DNA of 64,000 nucleotides from Verrucomicrobium sp. BvORR106 (GTDB taxonomy: Bacteria; Verrucomicrobiota; Verrucomicrobiia; Verrucomicrobiales; Verrucomicrobiaceae): the NCBI RefSeq assembly GCF_000739655.1, contig NZ_BATR01000112.1:124001-188000 (forward strand), given 5' to 3'. The notes beneath the pieces are model-generated. The model searched no databases, was not told where the DNA came from, and saw only the letters and a program-made list of their open reading frames with translations. A program made the translations under genes and the position numbers. Every line of letters begins with the position of its first letter. Within the stretch, counting starts at the first letter, position 1. Of this stretch, positions 36,929 through 47,725 are shown one piece after another.

Positions 36929-37765
36929 ATGATGGAACCATCCGGCCTCACCGCCAGCCGCCCGAGGAGTGTGGCGCGACTGCACCAGACCTTTTCCAAA
37001 AGTCTGACCGCGGCAGACCTGGTGGAGCCACTGGCCTCCCTGGATGGAAACCAGCAGGCCGGTCTGGCGCGGGAGCTGATGAAGGATGACGGGCGCGCGG
37101 TGCTGGGCGTGCGACAGCGTGGTCTGGTGACGGGGTGGGTGGATGAGGAGGATCTGGCATCGGCATCTGGTTCCCTGCAAGAAGCTGCCAGGCCGTTTCA
37201 GGAAGAGTCGGCGGTGGATGCAGATGCTGGACTGGGCACGGTGCTGACAGCAATGAGTCATGCCCCGCGGGTGTTTGTGCGCTGGCTGGGTGAGGTGGGC
37301 GGGGTGATCTGCCACCAGGATCTGCAGAAGGCACCGCTCCGGATGTGGTTGTTCGGCACGGTCACGCTGCTGGATCTGAACATGACCTGGGCGATTGAAG
37401 AGCTGCATCCTGCTGAGGCGTGGGGAGACAAGATCTCAGCGGGCAGGCTGGGCAAGGCCCAGGCACTGCAAACGGAACGGCGACGCTGTGGAGGCGACTG
37501 CCGGCTGGTGGACTGCCTGCAGATCAAGGACAAGGCGGATATCCTGCTCCATGAGCCGCAATTGATTGAAGATCTGGGATTTGTCTCCCGGCGGGAGGCC
37601 GACCGGTTTGCCCGCGCGATCGAGTCCTTGCGCAATCATCTGGCCCATTCCCAGGAGCTGGAGCAGGAGCACGTGGGTACGGCGGCGCGGTTGGCCACGT
37701 TTATGGATTCCATCATCCATGCGCGTGGGGTGAGAAGGATGGTGGGCCGGCAGGGCGCAGGATGA
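36929..37765 (+). CDS. CBS-like/HEPN-like domain protein
   Basis: 278 residues, soluble. The N-terminal half (about 28-160) looks like a degenerate pair of CBS modules (LVEPLASLDGNQQAG..., GRAVLGVRQRGLVTGWVDEEDL), which in other proteins bind adenine nucleotides. The C-terminal part is helical: LVDCLQIKDKADILLHEPQL, then SRREADRFARAIESLRNHLAHSQEL. It contains R-N-x-x-x-H at residues 235-240, the catalytic-type signature of HEPN ribonucleases. That motif also occurs in non-catalytic family members, so RNase activity is only possible. Alone on its strand between the divergent ABC gene and the Dcu operon, with a palindromic operator just after its stop. Confidence 0.62.
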   Translation: MMEPSGLTASRPRSVARLHQTFSKSLTAADLVEPLASLDGNQQAGLARELMKDDGRAVLGVRQRGLVTGWVDEEDLASASGSLQEAARPFQEESAVDADAGLGTVLTAMSHAPRVFVRWLGEVGGVICHQDLQKAPLRMWLFGTVTLLDLNMTWAIEELHPAEAWGDKISAGRLGKAQALQTERRRCGGDCRLVDCLQIKDKADILLHEPQLIEDLGFVSRREADRFARAIESLRNHLAHSQELEQEHVGTAARLATFMDSIIHARGVRRMVGRQGAG

Positions 37766-37943: not shown

Positions 37944-39275
37944 ATGGACATCAAACTGATCCTTGAATTTGCCGTCATCCTGGGGGCGCTCGCCATGGGG
38001 GCCAGGGCTGGCGGGGTGGGCCTGGGCCTCTGGGGCGCTGTGGGGTTGCTGGTGCTCGTCCTCGGTTTCGGCGCCGCTCCGGCGGCCATCCCCGGAGAGG
38101 TGCTTCTCATCGTACTCACGGTGATCATGGCGGCCTCTGCCATGGAGGTGGCGGGTGGCATTGATTTCCTCGTCCGCCTGGCGGAGAAGATCATCCGGAA
38201 GAATCCCAAGCAGGTCACGATCGTGGCACCGCTGGTGACATACGCTTTCACTTTTGCCGCAGGCACGGGGCACATTGTCTATCCGCTGCTGCCGGTGATC
38301 TATGAGGTGGCTCATGAAAATGGCATCCGGCCTGAGCGCCCCATGGCCGTGGCCACCATTGCCTCCCAGCAGGCGATCACAGCCAGTCCGGTCTCGGCGG
38401 CCACGGCGGCGATGATCGGACTGATGGCCTCGCACGGAATAGGCCTCGTGCAGATCCTGCTCATTTGTGTGCCCTCCACGCTGATCGCCGTGATCATCGC
38501 GGCCTTCTTCCAGCTTCGCGTGGGCAAGGAGTTGAAGGATGATCCCGAGTATCAGAAGCTTCTGGCATCAGGCGAGCTTCAGCCTCCTGGTAAAAGTGCC
38601 TCGGGCACGGTGGCTCCCCTCAAAAAGGGCTCCAAGGCCAGCGCACTGATCTTTCTCACTGGCGTAGCCCTCATTGTTCTTGCGGGCATCTTCCCCCAAC
38701 TGCGCACAGTCGGTAGCGCTGCCAAACCCATTGTGATGTCGATGCCGATCTCGATCGCCATCGTGATGCTGGCGGTGGCTGCGATCATCCTCACGGTGAC
38801 CAAGGCTCCGGTCGAGGAGGTGCCAAAGTGCAAGACGTGCCAGTCCGGCATCACGGCCATTGTCGGTATTCTGGGCCTGGCCTGGCTGGGGGACACCTTT
38901 ATCAACGCGAACCGTGAGGTCATCATCGGAGGGTTGAGCGACATGGCGAGGGCGGCCCCGTGGACCTTTGCCATCGGCCTCTTCCTCGCCTCCATGCTTC
39001 TCTACAGTCAGGCGGCCACCACGCGGGCGTTGATGCCGCTGGGACTCTCGCTGGGCATCCCTGCGCCGCTGCTCGTCGGGATGTTCCCTGCTGTGAATGG
39101 CTACTTCTTCATCCCGAACTACGGCACGATCATCGCCGCCATCCAGTTCGACCGGTCAAAAACGACGCGGATCGGGAAGTATCTCCTGAACCACTCTTTC
39201 ATGATGCCGGGCATCATCTGCACGGTGGGGGCTGTGACCATCGGGCTGCTCATCGGAGCCCTCTTTCCAAAGTAA
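37944..39275 (+). CDS. Dcu-family anaerobic C4-dicarboxylate antiporter
   Basis: 443 residues with about 11 hydrophobic spans and only short loops. The start IKLILEFAVILGALAMGARAGGVGLGLWGAVGLLVLV and the core FTFAAGTGHIVYPLLPVIYEVAHENGIRPERPMAVATIASQQAITASPVSAA match DcuA/DcuB carriers, which swap fumarate, malate or aspartate for succinate during fumarate respiration. It leads an operon: aspartase starts 16 bases on, and a fumarate-reductase-type complex closes it. Length matches the family (about 430-450). Whether it is DcuA- or DcuB-like cannot be settled by eye. Confidence 0.92.
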   Translation: MDIKLILEFAVILGALAMGARAGGVGLGLWGAVGLLVLVLGFGAAPAAIPGEVLLIVLTVIMAASAMEVAGGIDFLVRLAEKIIRKNPKQVTIVAPLVTYAFTFAAGTGHIVYPLLPVIYEVAHENGIRPERPMAVATIASQQAITASPVSAATAAMIGLMASHGIGLVQILLICVPSTLIAVIIAAFFQLRVGKELKDDPEYQKLLASGELQPPGKSASGTVAPLKKGSKASALIFLTGVALIVLAGIFPQLRTVGSAAKPIVMSMPISIAIVMLAVAAIILTVTKAPVEEVPKCKTCQSGITAIVGILGLAWLGDTFINANREVIIGGLSDMARAAPWTFAIGLFLASMLLYSQAATTRALMPLGLSLGIPAPLLVGMFPAVNGYFFIPNYGTIIAAIQFDRSKTTRIGKYLLNHSFMMPGIICTVGAVTIGLLIGALFPK

Positions 39276-39291
39276 CCGAAGAATTCATACC

Positions 39292-41148
39292 ATGAACTTG
39301 AATCAAGAGACCATTTCAGCAGCCGCCCAGCGCATGGGCATTGCGCCGGAGGATCTGGCCGCCGTCGTTCAGCAGGGTGGAGTTGTTTCCTATGAATCCG
39401 GTGCCTATCTCTTTCATGAGAGCACGCCGCGTCTCTGGCTCGGCATTGTGCTTGATGGAGAGGTGGAGGTGCAGCGCGGTGCGCAGGCCCGCAGTGTGAT
39501 CCTGGCCACGCTGAAGCCTGGGGCCATTCTCAGTGAGGGGGTGATGCTGGATGATTCTCCCCACGCCACCAGCGCCACGGCTCCGCGGGGTGCAGCGGTC
39601 TGGCAGATCACCCGGGCCATCCTGGAGAAGATCCGTGCAGAGAAGCCGGACATTTACTACCGCATCGCCGGCCGGGTCGCGGCGCGGCTCAGTGATCGGA
39701 TTGGCCTGGCATCCGGGCGCATCGCCGGGGAACACGGGCCCGCAGAGATCTCCGCAGTGCGTCGTGAACATGATTCGCTCGGTGAGCGCGATGTGCCGGA
39801 TCATGCTTACTACGGGGTGCAGACGATCCGTGGGGTGGAGAACTTTCCGCTCTCTGGCATTCATCTGTATCACTTCCGCCACTTCGTGAACGGGCTGGCG
39901 TTGGTCAAGAAAGCTGCCGCCCTCGCCAATGGCGAGCTGGGCGTGCTGGAGCAGGGCAGGGCGGAGGCGATCGTGAAGGCCTGTGATGAAATCCTGGCTG
40001 GCAAGCTGCACGATCAGTTTGTGATCGACATGTTTCAAGGAGGTGCCGGCACCTCCACGAACATGAATGCGAACGAGGTGATCGCCAACCGCGCGTTGGA
40101 GATCCTGGGTCATAAGAAGGGGGAGTACCAGCATCTCCACCCCAATGATCACGTGAACTGCTCGCAATCCACCAATGATGCGTACCCGACAGCTATCAAG
40201 CTGGGCGTCATCCTGACACTGCAGGATACGCTCTCTGCCCTGCGCGAACTGCGTACGGCGCTGGAAAACAAGGCGAAAGAGTTCGCCGATGTGCTGAAGA
40301 TGGGACGCACGGAAAATCAGGATGCCGTGCCGATGACGCTGGGTCAGGAGTTCGGCGCCTACTCGGTGATGATCGGAGATGGCATCCGCCATCTCAAGCA
40401 CGCGGGCGGAGAGTTTCTGGCGATCAACATGGGAGCCACTGCAATTGGCACGGGGCTGAACAGCCCGCCCGGATATGCAGCCCTCTGTACGCAGCGGCTC
40501 GCTGAGGTCAGTGGCATTCCCGTCACGCTCGCTGGAGATCTGGTGGAAGCCACGCAGGACTCCGGCGAGTTCTCGCTCATGAGCGGCACCATGAAGACGG
40601 CCGCGGTCCAGCTTTCCAAGATCTGCAACGACCTGCGCTGGTTGTCCTCCGGACCGCGTTGCGGTCTGTATGAGATCAAGCTGCCTCCCATGCAACCGGG
40701 TTCATCCATCATGCCGGGGAAGGTGAATCCCGTAGTGCCGGAGGTGGTGAGCCAGATCTGCTTCCAGATCATCGGTGCGGATGTGACGGTCTCCATGGCT
40801 GCCGAGGCCAGTGAACTGGAGTTGAACATGGCGGAGCCGGTGATTGCCTTTAACCTGCTCTTCGGTCTCACCCTCCTGAGGAATGCCGCCATCATCCTGA
40901 ACAGCCGGTGCATCTCTGGCATCGAGGCCAATCGTGAGCGCTGCCTGGCATACGTGCACAACTCGATCGGGCTGGTCACGGCACTGAATCCGGTGCTGGG
41001 GTATGAACGAAGTGCTGCGATCGCCAAGGAGGCGCTGAAGACGGGGGGCAGCGTGTATGATCTGGTGCTGCAGAAAGGCTGGCTGACTCGGGAGCAGCTG
41101 GATGATCTGCTCAAGCCGGAGAATATGACCCACCCGCGCCAGGTGTAG
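39292..41148 (+). CDS. aspA: Aspartate ammonia-lyase with N-terminal CRP-like sensor domain
   Basis: 618 residues, about 150 more than usual aspartases (about 470). Residues 1-150 form a cyclic-nucleotide-binding (CRP) fold: GIVLDGEVEVQRGAQARSVILATLKPGAILSEGVMLDD. The phosphate-cassette arginine is absent (LDDSPHATSA). From 155 the aspartase begins: DVPDHAYYGVQTIRGVENF, then GGAGTSTNMNANEVIANRALE, HPNDHVNCSQSTNDAYPTA, and the signature loop GSSIMPGKVNPVV. The enzyme splits aspartate into fumarate and ammonia, which feeds the encoded fumarate reductase. Aspartase and fumarase share this fold; YYGVQT and gene context favour aspartase. The extra domain suggests allosteric control by an unknown ligand. 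Confidence 0.9.
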   Translation: MNLNQETISAAAQRMGIAPEDLAAVVQQGGVVSYESGAYLFHESTPRLWLGIVLDGEVEVQRGAQARSVILATLKPGAILSEGVMLDDSPHATSATAPRGAAVWQITRAILEKIRAEKPDIYYRIAGRVAARLSDRIGLASGRIAGEHGPAEISAVRREHDSLGERDVPDHAYYGVQTIRGVENFPLSGIHLYHFRHFVNGLALVKKAAALANGELGVLEQGRAEAIVKACDEILAGKLHDQFVIDMFQGGAGTSTNMNANEVIANRALEILGHKKGEYQHLHPNDHVNCSQSTNDAYPTAIKLGVILTLQDTLSALRELRTALENKAKEFADVLKMGRTENQDAVPMTLGQEFGAYSVMIGDGIRHLKHAGGEFLAINMGATAIGTGLNSPPGYAALCTQRLAEVSGIPVTLAGDLVEATQDSGEFSLMSGTMKTAAVQLSKICNDLRWLSSGPRCGLYEIKLPPMQPGSSIMPGKVNPVVPEVVSQICFQIIGADVTVSMAAEASELELNMAEPVIAFNLLFGLTLLRNAAIILNSRCISGIEANRERCLAYVHNSIGLVTALNPVLGYERSAAIAKEALKTGGSVYDLVLQKGWLTREQLDDLLKPENMTHPRQV

Positions 41149-41185: not shown

Positions 41186-43498
41186 ATGACTGCGAGTGAT
41201 CTGGCCTTTGTCAACACGAGCGTTCCGCTCCTCTCCCACTTCACGGAGGCCCAGCGCCGTGATCTGGTAGAAGGTTCCCTGGTACGGGACTACCAGGTCG
41301 GGGAGGTGATTCTCCACGGCGGGGATGAGGTGCACCTCCTGGGCGTGCTGCTGGAGGGGGTGATTCACGGATTGATTCCCTCCTCAGGCGCCGGGGCGCT
41401 GCCACTGGGGGAGATCCAGGCGGGGGGCACGTTTGGTGAACTGGCCCTGATGAGTGGGGATCCCGCTGTGGCGGATCTGGTGGCAGCCACGCCGTGCCGA
41501 ATCATGCTGGTTCCTTTGACCTTGTTCCAGAGCCGGATCATGGCCAATCCCGGTGCGGCCCAACTCATCGCCTTGACGGTGAGCACGCGCGTGCAGCTGG
41601 CCCTGCAGGACCCCGCCAGAGCGGCTGCACTGAACCGCAAACCTGCTGAAGGGGGCCCTCTGGAGCTCAAGGGGGAACGGCCGGAGCGTATCCTGGTGAT
41701 CAATTGCGGATCGTCTTCACTGAAGTACCGGTACTTTGACAGTGAGACGCCAGAGCTTTCCGCCGGCGGGCAGGTGGAGCGCATTGGCCAGCCTGGAATG
41801 AGACTCAGCCAGAAGTCCGCCAAAGGCGAGCTGCAGCAAGACCTGCCTTCCGGCGGCTTTGCAGAGGCTTTCCAGGCAATGCAGAGCGCCCTGGTACATC
41901 CTGAATCTGGGGTGCTGAAGGATCGCGCAGCGGTGACGGTGGTAGGGCACCGGGTGGTGCATGGCGGGGAGAAGTTCTCAAGTGCTACGATCATTGATGA
42001 CGCTGTGCTGGCGGAAATCGAGGCCTTGGGCGCCCTCGCGCCTTTGCATAACCCGGTCAATGCCGCGGGCATCCGCGAGGCCCGGCGGGCCTTTCCCGGG
42101 GTGCCGCACGTGGCGGTGTTTGACACGGCCTTTCATGCGACCCTGCCCAGCCAGGCCTATCTCTACGGCCTGCCTCATGAGTACTATGAAACCAAGGGTG
42201 TCCGCCGCTACGGCTTCCACGGCTCTTCTCACAGCTATGTGACGCTGGCTGCGGCCCAGCACCTGCGGCGACGGCCGCGGGATCTGCGCATCATCAGCTG
42301 TCATCTGGGCAATGGGGCCTCCATTTGCGCCATCGACCACGGTCGCTCGGTGGACACCTCCATGGGGCTGACGCCGGGGGAAGGGCTGCTGATGGGGACC
42401 CGCTGCGGAGACATCGACTCTGGGGTGGCCGCGCATCTGGCTCGCACGGAGGGGATGGGGCCGGAGCAGTTCGATGAAATGTTGAACAAGCGCAGCGGCC
42501 TGCTCGGGCTGTCCGGAATCTCCAGCGACATGCGCGAGGTGGAGCAGGCGGCGGAGCAAGGGGACCCACGGGCTCTGACGGCGCTCAAGGTCTTTTGTTA
42601 TCGGGTGAGGAAGTACATCGGTGCCTACATTGCCGCCATGGGGGGCGTGGATGTGGTCCTGTTCACAGCAGGCATCGGCCAGGGCAGCGCTGGCGTTCGG
42701 GCCACAGCGCTCCAGGGCCTGGGATGCATGGGCATCCTGCTGGATGAGGAGCTCAACCGCCGCGTGGTCAGCGGAGTGGTGAGCTGCATCTCCGCCGCTG
42801 GCTCGCCCGTGACGGTGCTGGTGGTGCCCACCGATGAGGAGCGCATGATCGCCCGTGAGACGCTGCGGGTGCTGACGCGAGACTACCTGGTGAAGGCCAG
42901 CGACGCCTGCCGGGATGCGCCTGTGCCCATCGAGGTCTCCGCGCACCACATCCATCTCTCTGCCTCCGATGTGGAGGCCCTCTTCGGTGCAGGGCACGAG
43001 CTCACAAAGCACGCGGACCTCTCCCAGCCCGGGCAGTTTGCTTGCAAGGAACAGCTCACCATTGTGGGGCCCAAGGGCCGCATCGAACGGGTCCGGGTGC
43101 TGGGGCCGGCGCGGAAGGCTACACAGGTGGAGATCGCGATGACGGAGCAGTTTAAGCTGGGGATCCAGCCGCCCATCCGCGAGTCCGGGGATATCGATGG
43201 CTCGCCAGGTTGCACCCTGGAGGGGCCTGCAGGCAGCGTGAACATCGAGCGGGGAGTGATCTGCGCGCTGAGGCACATCCACATGACCCCGGCCGATGCC
43301 TTAAGATATGGCGTGCGGGACAAGAGCAGCGTGCGGATCCGCGTGCAGGGGGAGCGGGAACTGATCTTTGGCGACGTACGGATTCGCGTGGATCCCAGCT
43401 ATGCCCTGGCGATGCACATTGATACGGATGAAGCCAATGCGGCCAATCTGCAAAACGGGGCACAGGGCTTCATCGATGGCATCCAGGAGGATGGTTAG
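41186..43498 (+). CDS. CRP-like domain/acetate kinase/PduL phosphotransacylase triple fusion
   Basis: 770 residues, three parts. 1-145: CRP fold with GGTFGELALMSGDPAVAD; GEL (85-87) is kept but the usual phosphate-binding Arg is missing. 168-565: complete acetate kinase with VINCGSSSLKYR (171-182), GHRVVHGGEKF, FDTAFHATLP, YGFHGSSHSYV (342-352), CHLGNGASICAI and FTAGIGQGS (493-501). 580-770: PduL phosphotransacylase with IEVSAHHIHLS (582-592) and RHIHMTP (696-702), whose His residues bind zinc. One chain can thus take acetyl-CoA to acetyl phosphate to acetate + ATP, a likely channelled pathway under ligand control. Two separate enzymes in most bacteria; the three-way fusion is unusual. Starts 37 bases after aspA. 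Confidence 0.93.
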   Translation: MTASDLAFVNTSVPLLSHFTEAQRRDLVEGSLVRDYQVGEVILHGGDEVHLLGVLLEGVIHGLIPSSGAGALPLGEIQAGGTFGELALMSGDPAVADLVAATPCRIMLVPLTLFQSRIMANPGAAQLIALTVSTRVQLALQDPARAAALNRKPAEGGPLELKGERPERILVINCGSSSLKYRYFDSETPELSAGGQVERIGQPGMRLSQKSAKGELQQDLPSGGFAEAFQAMQSALVHPESGVLKDRAAVTVVGHRVVHGGEKFSSATIIDDAVLAEIEALGALAPLHNPVNAAGIREARRAFPGVPHVAVFDTAFHATLPSQAYLYGLPHEYYETKGVRRYGFHGSSHSYVTLAAAQHLRRRPRDLRIISCHLGNGASICAIDHGRSVDTSMGLTPGEGLLMGTRCGDIDSGVAAHLARTEGMGPEQFDEMLNKRSGLLGLSGISSDMREVEQAAEQGDPRALTALKVFCYRVRKYIGAYIAAMGGVDVVLFTAGIGQGSAGVRATALQGLGCMGILLDEELNRRVVSGVVSCISAAGSPVTVLVVPTDEERMIARETLRVLTRDYLVKASDACRDAPVPIEVSAHHIHLSASDVEALFGAGHELTKHADLSQPGQFACKEQLTIVGPKGRIERVRVLGPARKATQVEIAMTEQFKLGIQPPIRESGDIDGSPGCTLEGPAGSVNIERGVICALRHIHMTPADALRYGVRDKSSVRIRVQGERELIFGDVRIRVDPSYALAMHIDTDEANAANLQNGAQGFIDGIQEDG

Positions 43499-43507: not shown

Positions 43508-44038
43508 ATGGAACAACCTGACGACAGCGCGAGAATCAGTGACACCCGGCTGGTGGTCGTGGCGTTTGACAATGCCGCTGAGGCCTTCGACATGCGGGGT
43601 GTGCTGACGAGGCTGCAGGAAGTGCATACCATGGATGCGGTGGAGATGGTGGTCGTGGTGCGGGACGAGAAGGGGAAGGTGACGCTCCACCAGCAGGATA
43701 ACCTGGCCGTGATCGGTGCCACTTATGGCTCCTTTGCCGGGCTACTGGCCTCGCTCATCTTTCTGAATCCATCCGGAGTATTGCTGGGGCTGGGCATCGG
43801 GGCGATCTCCGGCAGGCTCTCTGACGTGGGGATCAGTGATGCATTCATGCGAGAACTGGGGAGTACGCTCACGAACGGTACCTCAGCGCTCTTCGTTTTG
43901 GTGCGCAAAACCAACCCGGACGAGGTCGTGGCCGGGCTGCAGCGGTTTGCCGGGCGGTGCCGGGTGTTGCAGGCACCACTTCCGCCGGAGAATGAAGCCC
44001 GGCTGAGAGCCCTGCTGGAGAGGAAGGATCCCGAATAG
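43508..44038 (+). CDS. DUF1269-family membrane protein
   Basis: 176 residues. Starts with a soluble stretch (LVVVAFDNAAEAFDMRGVLTRLQEVHTMDAVEMVVVVRDEKGKVTLHQ), then a Gly/Ala-rich hydrophobic hairpin (GATYGSFAGLLASLIFLNPSGVLLGLGIGAISGRLSDVGI) and a soluble tail with ALFVLVRKTNPDEVVAGLQRF. This is the DUF1269 layout. Role unknown; its place between the acetate kinase fusion and the sdhC gene, with a strong ribosome-binding site, implies it is made in quantity with the anaerobic enzymes. It has no His or Cys pattern suggesting a redox cofactor. Confidence 0.8.
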   Translation: MEQPDDSARISDTRLVVVAFDNAAEAFDMRGVLTRLQEVHTMDAVEMVVVVRDEKGKVTLHQQDNLAVIGATYGSFAGLLASLIFLNPSGVLLGLGIGAISGRLSDVGISDAFMRELGSTLTNGTSALFVLVRKTNPDEVVAGLQRFAGRCRVLQAPLPPENEARLRALLERKDPE

Positions 44039-44103
44039 CCCTCGGGTCATTGTCAGTATGTTTTCAGAAGTTTCATGCAACCCGATTCATCATCTTCATC
44101 ATC

Positions 44104-44805
44104 ATGAGCACTCTCACACATGCGGTGGCATTGACGGTTGGCTCCTCCATCGGAAAGAAGGCGCTGGTGGCCGTGACTGGCGCGGTACTGGCCGGTTTCG
44201 TATTGGGCCACATGATCGGTAACCTTCTCATCTTTGCCGGGCCGGACGCGATCAATGAGTATGGACACCTGCTTCAGACGATGCTGCACGGCATGGGGGT
44301 CTGGGTGGCGCGCATCGGGCTGCTGGCGTGTACCGTGGTGCATGTGGTCCTGACAGTGCAGTTGACCAGGGAGAATCGCGCGGCCCGTCCTGGCCGCTAT
44401 GGGTATGATGCAACGATCCAGGCCACCCGATCCTCTCGCACCATGATCTTCAGCGGGCTTACCTTGCTGGCATTCATCGTGTATCACCTCATGCATTTCA
44501 CCCTCCGGGTGGGGAATGAGTATGCCACCTACAAGACCACCTTGCACGGGGAGCAGGTGCATGATGTGTACCGCATGGTCATTGATGGATTCTCGTGGTG
44601 GCCGGCCTCCGTGTTCTACCTCATCGCCATGGCCATGCTCTGCTCCCATCTGAGCCATGGGGTGAGCAGCATGTTCCAGACGCTGGGCCTCAGCACTCCG
44701 CGCACCATGGGGACCTTCCGGATGGTGGGACGGGCGTATGCCGCTCTCATCTTTGGGGGAAATGCCTTCATCGTGCTCGCCGTCTGGTTCAAGTGGGTTC
44801 ACTGA
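44104..44805 (+). CDS. sdhC: Succinate dehydrogenase/fumarate reductase cytochrome b558 subunit
   Basis: 233 residues from ATG 44104; the open frame begins further upstream without a signal. Five hydrophobic helices carry spaced histidines (LGHMIGN, VVHVVLT, YHLMHF, SHLSHG), suited to two b hemes, as in the Bacteroides/Wolinella/Bacillus-type single-anchor subunit. There is no separate SdhD. It binds the flavoprotein and iron-sulfur subunits to the membrane and exchanges electrons with menaquinone. The C-A-B order and the carrier/aspartase upstream favour fumarate reduction, though the same family can oxidise succinate. Confidence 0.92.
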   Translation: MSTLTHAVALTVGSSIGKKALVAVTGAVLAGFVLGHMIGNLLIFAGPDAINEYGHLLQTMLHGMGVWVARIGLLACTVVHVVLTVQLTRENRAARPGRYGYDATIQATRSSRTMIFSGLTLLAFIVYHLMHFTLRVGNEYATYKTTLHGEQVHDVYRMVIDGFSWWPASVFYLIAMAMLCSHLSHGVSSMFQTLGLSTPRTMGTFRMVGRAYAALIFGGNAFIVLAVWFKWVH

Positions 44806-44847
44806 GCCAACGCCAGATGTTCATTCACACCTCAACCTTCCGCGCCC

Positions 44848-46857
<2,010 letters not shown>

Positions 46858-46930
46858 CTTTCCTTCGCAATGGGTCCCTTGCCCGGGGACGATGCCTTCT
46901 CTATTCCGCAACTTTTACCTGAAGACTTCC

Positions 46931-47725
46931 ATGGCCCGCACTCTGAATTTGCACCTGAAAATCTGGCGTCAACCTGGTCCTGATGCCGGTGGTTGGTTTC
47001 AGGAAATCGAAGCCAGTGAAATTCCAGAAACGGCCTCGTTTCTAGAGATGCTCGATATTGTGAATCAGAAGCTGATTTCCGTCTCTGGTGATCCCGTGGT
47101 CTTCGACCATGATTGTCGGGAAGGCATCTGTGGCACGTGCGGCATGGTTATCAACGGGGTGCCGCACGGGCCTCAGCGCGGCACCACCACCTGCCAGCTG
47201 CACATGCGCACTTTCAACGACGGCGACACCATCTGGATTGAGCCCTTTCGAGCCAAGGCCTTCCCGATCATCAAGGATCTGATGGTGAACCGCAGCGGGT
47301 TTGACCGCATCATGGCTGCAGGTGGTTTTATCAGCGTGCGCACGGGGGCGGCCCAGGATGCGAATGCGTTGCCGATCTCCAAGGAGGCGGCGGATTCCTC
47401 CATGGACGCTGCGGAGTGCATTGGCTGCGGGGCCTGCGTGGCCTCGTGTAAGAACGCCAGTGCCATGCTCTTCACCGCAGCGAAGGCGGGTCAGTTCAAC
47501 ATGTTGCCGCAGGGGCAGCCGGAGAAGCACCGCCGCGTGCTGGGCATGGTGAAGACCATGGACGAGGCCGGTTTCGGCAACTGTACCAACCAATACGAGT
47601 GCGAGGCCGCCTGTCCCAAGCGGATTGGGGTGAGATGGATCTCCAAGCTCAACCGGGACTACACCCTGGCAGTGGTGCATGACACCCTCCTGGCCCCCGT
47701 GGGCAAGGGCGGCGGGGAAGGGTAG
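46931..47725 (+). CDS. sdhB: Succinate dehydrogenase/fumarate reductase iron-sulfur subunit
   Basis: 264 residues from ATG 46931; the open frame extends upstream into sdhA but only the later start gives the family N-terminus (ARTLNLHLKIWRQ). The 2Fe-2S cysteines are C62, C67, C70 and C88 (DCREGICGTCGM...TTTCQL). CIGCGACVASC and CEAACPKRI supply ligands for the 4Fe-4S and 3Fe-4S clusters. It carries electrons between the flavin and the hemes. Last gene of the operon; convergent with the membrane-protein gene at 47735 (nine-base gap). GGTRATTCAG occurs three times just past the stop. Confidence 0.95.
   Translation: MARTLNLHLKIWRQPGPDAGGWFQEIEASEIPETASFLEMLDIVNQKLISVSGDPVVFDHDCREGICGTCGMVINGVPHGPQRGTTTCQLHMRTFNDGDTIWIEPFRAKAFPIIKDLMVNRSGFDRIMAAGGFISVRTGAAQDANALPISKEAADSSMDAAECIGCGACVASCKNASAMLFTAAKAGQFNMLPQGQPEKHRRVLGMVKTMDEAGFGNCTNQYECEAACPKRIGVRWISKLNRDYTLAVVHDTLLAPVGKGGGEG

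Follow-up and report, generated by a model that had tools for sequence, protein, structure and literature searches.

A conserved family of aspartases fused to a CRP-type domain with a distinctive sensor pocket

In Escherichia coli, aspartase is controlled through transcription and, reportedly, by a partner protein. An open reading frame of Verrucomicrobium sp. BvORR106, located at positions 39292-41148 of the 64,000-nucleotide stretch of DNA analysed here (hereafter, the window), points to a different arrangement, in which a cyclic-nucleotide-binding domain (CNBD) of the type found in the cAMP sensor CRP precedes an aspartate ammonia-lyase in the same chain. This raises the question of whether the CNBD is a genuine, translated part of the enzyme and, if so, how widespread such fusions are and what the domain might sense.

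Domain layout and translation of the fused protein

The gene, which like all other features of the window discussed below lies on the forward strand, encodes a single protein of 618 amino acids. Pfam recognizes in this protein, above the cut-off, a cNMP_binding domain (residues 32-116; E = 1.4e-10), followed by Lyase_1 (164-495; 2e-92) and FumaraseC_C (561-614). The NCBIfam model of aspartate ammonia-lyase, PRK12273, covers residues 155-616 with 717 bits (cut-off 510), and TIGR00839 scores 686 bits on the lyase part (cut-off 681). The CNBD spans approximately residues 5-145, with the aspartase (155-616) directly after. At the DNA level, the CNBD corresponds to 39292..39729 (residues 1-146), as defined by the Pfam match (PF00027), the AF2 model and the PDB matches to CRPs; a short, little conserved linker, delineated from the alignment, occupies 39730..39753 (approximately residues 147-154); and the complete lyase domain, identified by NCBIfam, VIA-align and motifs, extends over 39754..41145 (residues 155-618). 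In most ortholog comparisons, Ka of the linker exceeds that of either domain.

The AF2 models, which contain neither ligand nor tetramer, fit this layout. The full-length chain was modelled with a mean pLDDT of 82, and its lyase part matches the solved aspartases 6wng and 8rj1 with a VIA Z score of 49.5. Because the structure search with the full chain listed only lyases, the CNBD (residues 1-146) was modelled and searched alone. This model (mean pLDDT 92.3) displays helices, a beta-roll, the region of the phosphate-binding cassette (Glu82...His91) and a long C-helix; its best Foldseek matches are the Mycobacterium tuberculosis CRP and GlxR (TM 0.74-0.80), and the highest VIA-align score was obtained with the Thermus thermophilus CAP (Z = 16.9; 2.1 Å over 131 residues). 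Domain models and structure prediction alike thus recover the CRP-type fold that the initial annotation had placed in front of a complete aspartase, although the domain, then taken to comprise residues 1-150, ends at about residue 145. The 618-residue protein lacks a helix-turn-helix DNA-binding domain: the C-helix stops shortly ahead of the lyase, which starts at residue 155.

The gene starts 16 bp past the stop codon of the upstream Dcu transporter gene. Comparison with the nearest orthologue, from Verrucomicrobium sp. BvORR034, yields Ka of 0.056 and Ks of 1.23 for the CNBD (Ka/Ks about 0.05) and Ka of 0.025 and Ks of 1.01 for the lyase part, substitution patterns indicating that both are under purifying selection as protein. 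Furthermore, the fusion is in frame in every copy read, in Verrucomicrobiota as well as in Gemmatimonadota. Conservation of the reading frame in other species together with purifying selection implies that the CNBD is translated. These observations also argue against an alternative start near residue 150, a possibility raised at the outset. A candidate for such a start is the in-frame GTG at residue 156 (39757), which lies exactly where ordinary aspartases begin and from which a short aspartase alone might be made, the CNBD being vestigial. The five closest orthologues have this GTG too, but they are the only ones: in more distant members, the position of codon 156 is occupied by GTC, TTT, TTC or TGG, there is no consistent Shine-Dalgarno sequence ahead of it, and the CNBD is under strong purifying selection. 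We therefore rejected an internal start at GTG 39757 as the main start and regard a vestigial CNBD as very unlikely.

The lyase domain has an intact catalytic SS loop, GSSIMPGKVNP, and the substrate motif QSTND. It is the same domain, with the same loop, as in AspA/AspB (E. coli AspA, Bacillus YM55-1 AspB, PDB 6wng), from which the fused protein differs by the 150-residue CNBD added in front and, in the Verrucomicrobiota branch, by the motif GRTENQD where these have GRTQLQD or GRTHLQD. GRTENQD, at residues 338-344 (40303-40323), is shared by all fused aspartases of the Verrucomicrobiota branch, whereas GRTQLQD (in some cases GRTQMQD) is found in the aspartases of E. coli, other sampled proteobacteria, actinobacteria and most Gemmatimonadota, and GRTHLQD or a similar motif in fumarases and Bacillus AspB. 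The amine-side residue is, accordingly, Glu341 here, His in AspB and Gln in E. coli; the AspB counterpart of the changed residue, His188, contacts the amine group (PMC11744663). The GRTENQD motif could alter amine handling or substrate. Given that the amine-side position already varies among known aspartases, Glu341 is not decisive for membership, and both the family and the operon suggest that the lyase domain is active as an aspartase.

Distribution and history of the fusion

Standard aspartases, as the initial annotation stated, lack a CRP-like domain: E. coli AspA (478 residues) has no CNBD, and no CNBD part was found in some 370 plasmid records matching the protein, in all but three of which query coverage is below 80%, with the listed matches starting at residue 123 at the earliest. 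The fused family, by comparison, spans at least two phyla: it includes many Verrucomicrobiota and about a quarter of the Gemmatimonadota sampled, and it extends sporadically to Desulfobacterota and to a single Chloroflexota bin. Six of the eight close aspartases identified across 241 Verrucomicrobiota genomes are fused, and fused copies are present in Chthoniobacter flavus, Haloferula, an Akkermansiaceae bin, an Opitutaceae bin and others. Among 200 Gemmatimonadota genomes, 51 contain a match with E < 1e-28 in a frame of more than 600 codons; the best 20 of these 51 matches were read, and the aspartase is present in every one of them. The fused copies in three Desulfobacterota genomes and the Chloroflexota bin possibly result from transfer or misbinning. 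The aspartase CNBDs diverge down to about 23% identity. A literature search for aspartase and CNBD together retrieved no paper, although absence there is no proof of absence. Overall, the CNBD-aspartases are a real, conserved fusion family, undescribed in the literature searched, with a distinctive sensor pocket.

The host genome (8.7 Mb), a close relative of which is that of Verrucomicrobium sp. BvORR034, encodes a second CNBD-aspartase with 69% identity to the first over the full length. This second copy (L040:6730-8652), next to which no Dcu gene was recognised, is also present in two close relatives, BvORR034 and G003.

In the CNBD tree, the aspartase CNBDs form one group to the exclusion of all others (86/94). 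In the lyase tree, which includes few unfused rows, ordinary proteobacterial and actinobacterial aspartases fall among the fused ones, and a single clade of fused lyases was rejected by the AU test (p = 0.011 for the sampled rows with long branches left out; p = 0.006 without the two G145/G277 rows). The presence of unfused aspartases among the fused ones implies either that an old fusion was later lost or that fusion or domain exchange occurred more than once; compatible scenarios are early fusion followed by loss in the proteobacterial and actinobacterial lines and several fusion events drawing on a single CNBD lineage. In two Gemmatimonadota rows (L100 and L106), the lyase groups with Gemmatimonadota and the CNBD with Verrucomicrobiota, a possible case of domain exchange.

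The ligand pocket and its possible ligands

Glu82 (codon 39535..39537), the equivalent of E. coli CRP Glu72 and the residue that binds the ribose 2'-OH in the canonical cassette, is kept in all 46 distinct aspartase CNBDs. The canonical Arg that binds the cyclic phosphate, E. coli CRP Arg82, is missing from all of them, its place being taken by His91 (39562..39564). Residue 47 (39430..39432) in the beta2-beta3 loop, which by our own alignment corresponds to PKA Gly169, is Arg in 44 of the 46 domains, Pro in two and Gly in none. Among 64 other CNBDs, which are the nearest found rather than a random sample, position 91 is occupied by Arg (31), Ala (16) or His (10), and position 47 most commonly by Gly (27), followed by Asn in 11; Gly47 with Arg91 is the commonest pair (24/64), and the Arg47-His91 pair occurs once. 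Since CNBD sequences are related to one another, such counts do not represent independent events. Because 10 of the 64 other domains also have it, a His in place of the Arg does not on its own set the aspartase CNBDs apart. Arg136 was discarded as a signature residue: it is invariant in aspartase CNBDs but Arg is also found in 58 of the 64 others.

The cAMP receptor proteins CRP and GlxR (4ev0, 3d0s and 3r6s) share with the aspartase CNBD the fold, the C-helix and the pocket Glu, whereas the latter has no helix-turn-helix, His instead of the phosphate-binding Arg and Arg instead of the loop Gly. Would the domain nevertheless be an ordinary cAMP or cGMP sensor, in which His91 and Arg47 take over the phosphate role and cAMP directly controls the aspartase? 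This would agree with the retention of Glu82, with cAMP receptor proteins being the closest structures and with the five class III nucleotidyl cyclase homologues in the host genome, which suggest that cyclic nucleotides are probably present in the cell. However, the phosphate-binding Arg and the co-evolving loop Gly are each missing in 46 of 46 domains. In cAMP-type CNBDs, the cassette Arg co-evolves with a Gly of the beta2-beta3 loop, altered cassettes accompany other ligands, and in PKA even the replacement of Arg by Lys reduces cAMP affinity about ten-fold (Kannan et al., 2007; PMC2246266). Judging from these residues, the Arg47/Glu82/His91 pocket argues against a plain cAMP sensor, which we consider unlikely; weak cAMP binding via His91 and Arg47 is possible.

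Replacement of the phosphate-binding Arg has a parallel in the nucleoside-responsive PKA regulatory subunit of trypanosomatids, the ligands of which are purine nucleosides in trypanosomes (PMC10959531). That protein is eukaryotic, carries Thr/Asn instead of Arg as well as an extra Glu, and is homologous to the aspartase CNBD in the CNBD fold only. Another parallel is offered by CooA, where heme is coordinated by a His whose position corresponds structurally to that of PKA Arg209 (PMC2246266); His91 occupies the analogous place in the aspartase CNBD. The aspartase CNBD might, by the same token, bind heme or a metal via His91 and render the enzyme responsive to redox or CO/NO, which would suit an operon that serves anaerobic metabolism. 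CooA, however, is a transcription factor, whereas in the aspartase CNBD the pocket Glu, a residue that fits a sugar rather than heme, is retained in all copies, and none of the other invariant residues stands out as a second axial ligand, so that heme or metal binding appears highly improbable.

Alternatively, the CNBD could act in assembly only, as a structural or docking domain without a ligand, its C-helix pairing CNBDs for assembly or recruiting a partner. The long C-helix ending just ahead of the lyase start is compatible with such a role, as is the faster divergence of the CNBD compared to the lyase. Furthermore, E. coli aspartase reportedly interacts with a partner protein, GlnB. Yet Glu82 and His91 are invariant down to about 23% identity, which is unexpected for an unused pocket, and we view a pure docking function as rather improbable.

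The reading that we favour, with somewhat better than even confidence, is that of an aspartase with a built-in allosteric switch operated by a small molecule, most likely not by cAMP or cGMP bound in their canonical manner. Kept Glu82 would contact a sugar hydroxyl, which favours a nucleoside- or nucleotide-like ligand. Binding of this ligand in the CRP pocket would move the C-helix, which continues directly into the beginning of the lyase, and this movement would change aspartase activity within the tetramer. Allosteric control of catalysis by the CNBD would thereby make the conversion of aspartate to fumarate and ammonia, for which Dcu would be the supply and fumarate reductase the drain, depend on the cell's energy or nucleotide state.

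The operon and the neighbouring acetate kinase

The gene immediately upstream of the CNBD-aspartase (37944..39275) encodes an anaerobic C4-dicarboxylate transporter of the DcuA/DcuB type (PF03605, 5.9e-136), and Dcu adjoins the CNBD-aspartase in many Verrucomicrobiota loci. Downstream lies a gene (41186..43498) for a protein that, according to Pfam, combines a CNBD (residues 34-118), an acetate kinase (169-557) and a PduL phosphotransacylase (581-755). It is followed, after a gap of 9 bp, by a gene for a DUF1269 protein (43508..44038) and by those for the cytochrome b, flavoprotein and iron-sulfur subunits of a b558-type succinate dehydrogenase/fumarate reductase (44050..47725; Pfam and NCBIfam), the last of which probably starts near 46892. 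Intergenic gaps from Dcu through the flavoprotein gene measure 9 to 42 bp. Neither an Rfam RNA family nor a tRNA was detected in the 64-kb window.

Upstream of Dcu, a conserved gene (36929..37765) is found beside Dcu in three relatives. Its orthologue in L044 shows a weak match to the CBS domain (E = 0.0017), and the operon may thus include a third nucleotide-type sensor. In genome G004, a pyruvate kinase gene (L044:4821-6332) lies between this orthologue and Dcu. The fusion of acetate kinase and PduL behind a CNBD would allow a single polypeptide to convert acetyl-CoA to acetate and ATP; the PduL part in BvORR034 (L152) contains an in-frame TAG, either real or a sequencing error.

The initial annotation held that the next gene carries the same kind of domain, such that two neighbouring enzymes would share a sensor. 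Although the CNBD fold is indeed common to both, a shared sensor is not supported: position 91 is Ala or Met and position 47 Val or Ile in the acetate-kinase CNBDs, which in the CNBD tree cluster in a clade of their own amid other CNBDs (99/96), not sister to the aspartase CNBDs. Separate clades and different pocket residues rule out an intra-operon duplication as the origin of the two domains, a possibility that had been envisaged, and make it probable that the two respond to different ligands. Both fusions were found together in few genomes, namely the source genome, BvORR034, G014, Chthoniobacter and Haloferula BvORR071, and no fused acetate kinase was found alongside the majority of fused aspartases. 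A shared signal for the two neighbouring enzymes is therefore unsupported, and only the few genomes in which both fusions are known could control the two enzymes in a coordinated manner.

Several known proteins likewise combine a CNBD with a catalytic domain, within one chain or within one complex, including the mycobacterial acetyltransferase Pat (4onu), PKA/PKG and the EAL phosphodiesterase Bd1971 (6hq2-6hq7), all of which turn up as sequence or structure matches to the aspartase CNBD. These differ from the fused aspartases in their catalytic domains and in responding to cAMP or cGMP. Other fusions were observed as well: the same genome encodes a CNBD joined to a pyridine-nucleotide-disulphide oxidoreductase, with a non-canonical cassette (L008:1384-3090), and in Acidimicrobiia bins a CNBD precedes a histidine-kinase ATPase domain (L067, with L069 as a close homologue).

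Few metabolic enzymes carry a CNBD in their own chain, among them the acetyltransferase Pat and some phosphodiesterases and kinases. It is conceivable, if somewhat short of probable, that aspartase-linked CNBDs constitute a sensor class of their own, with Arg in the beta2-beta3 loop and His in the cassette, which would sense a non-cyclic nucleotide, a nucleoside or another metabolite and directly switch a central catabolic enzyme across Verrucomicrobiota and Gemmatimonadota. A multi-phylum family with an invariant non-canonical pocket provides a soluble, easily assayed enzyme for probing the non-cAMP ligands of CNBDs. If the favoured allosteric reading is true, the control of aspartase in these bacteria would be built into the enzyme itself.
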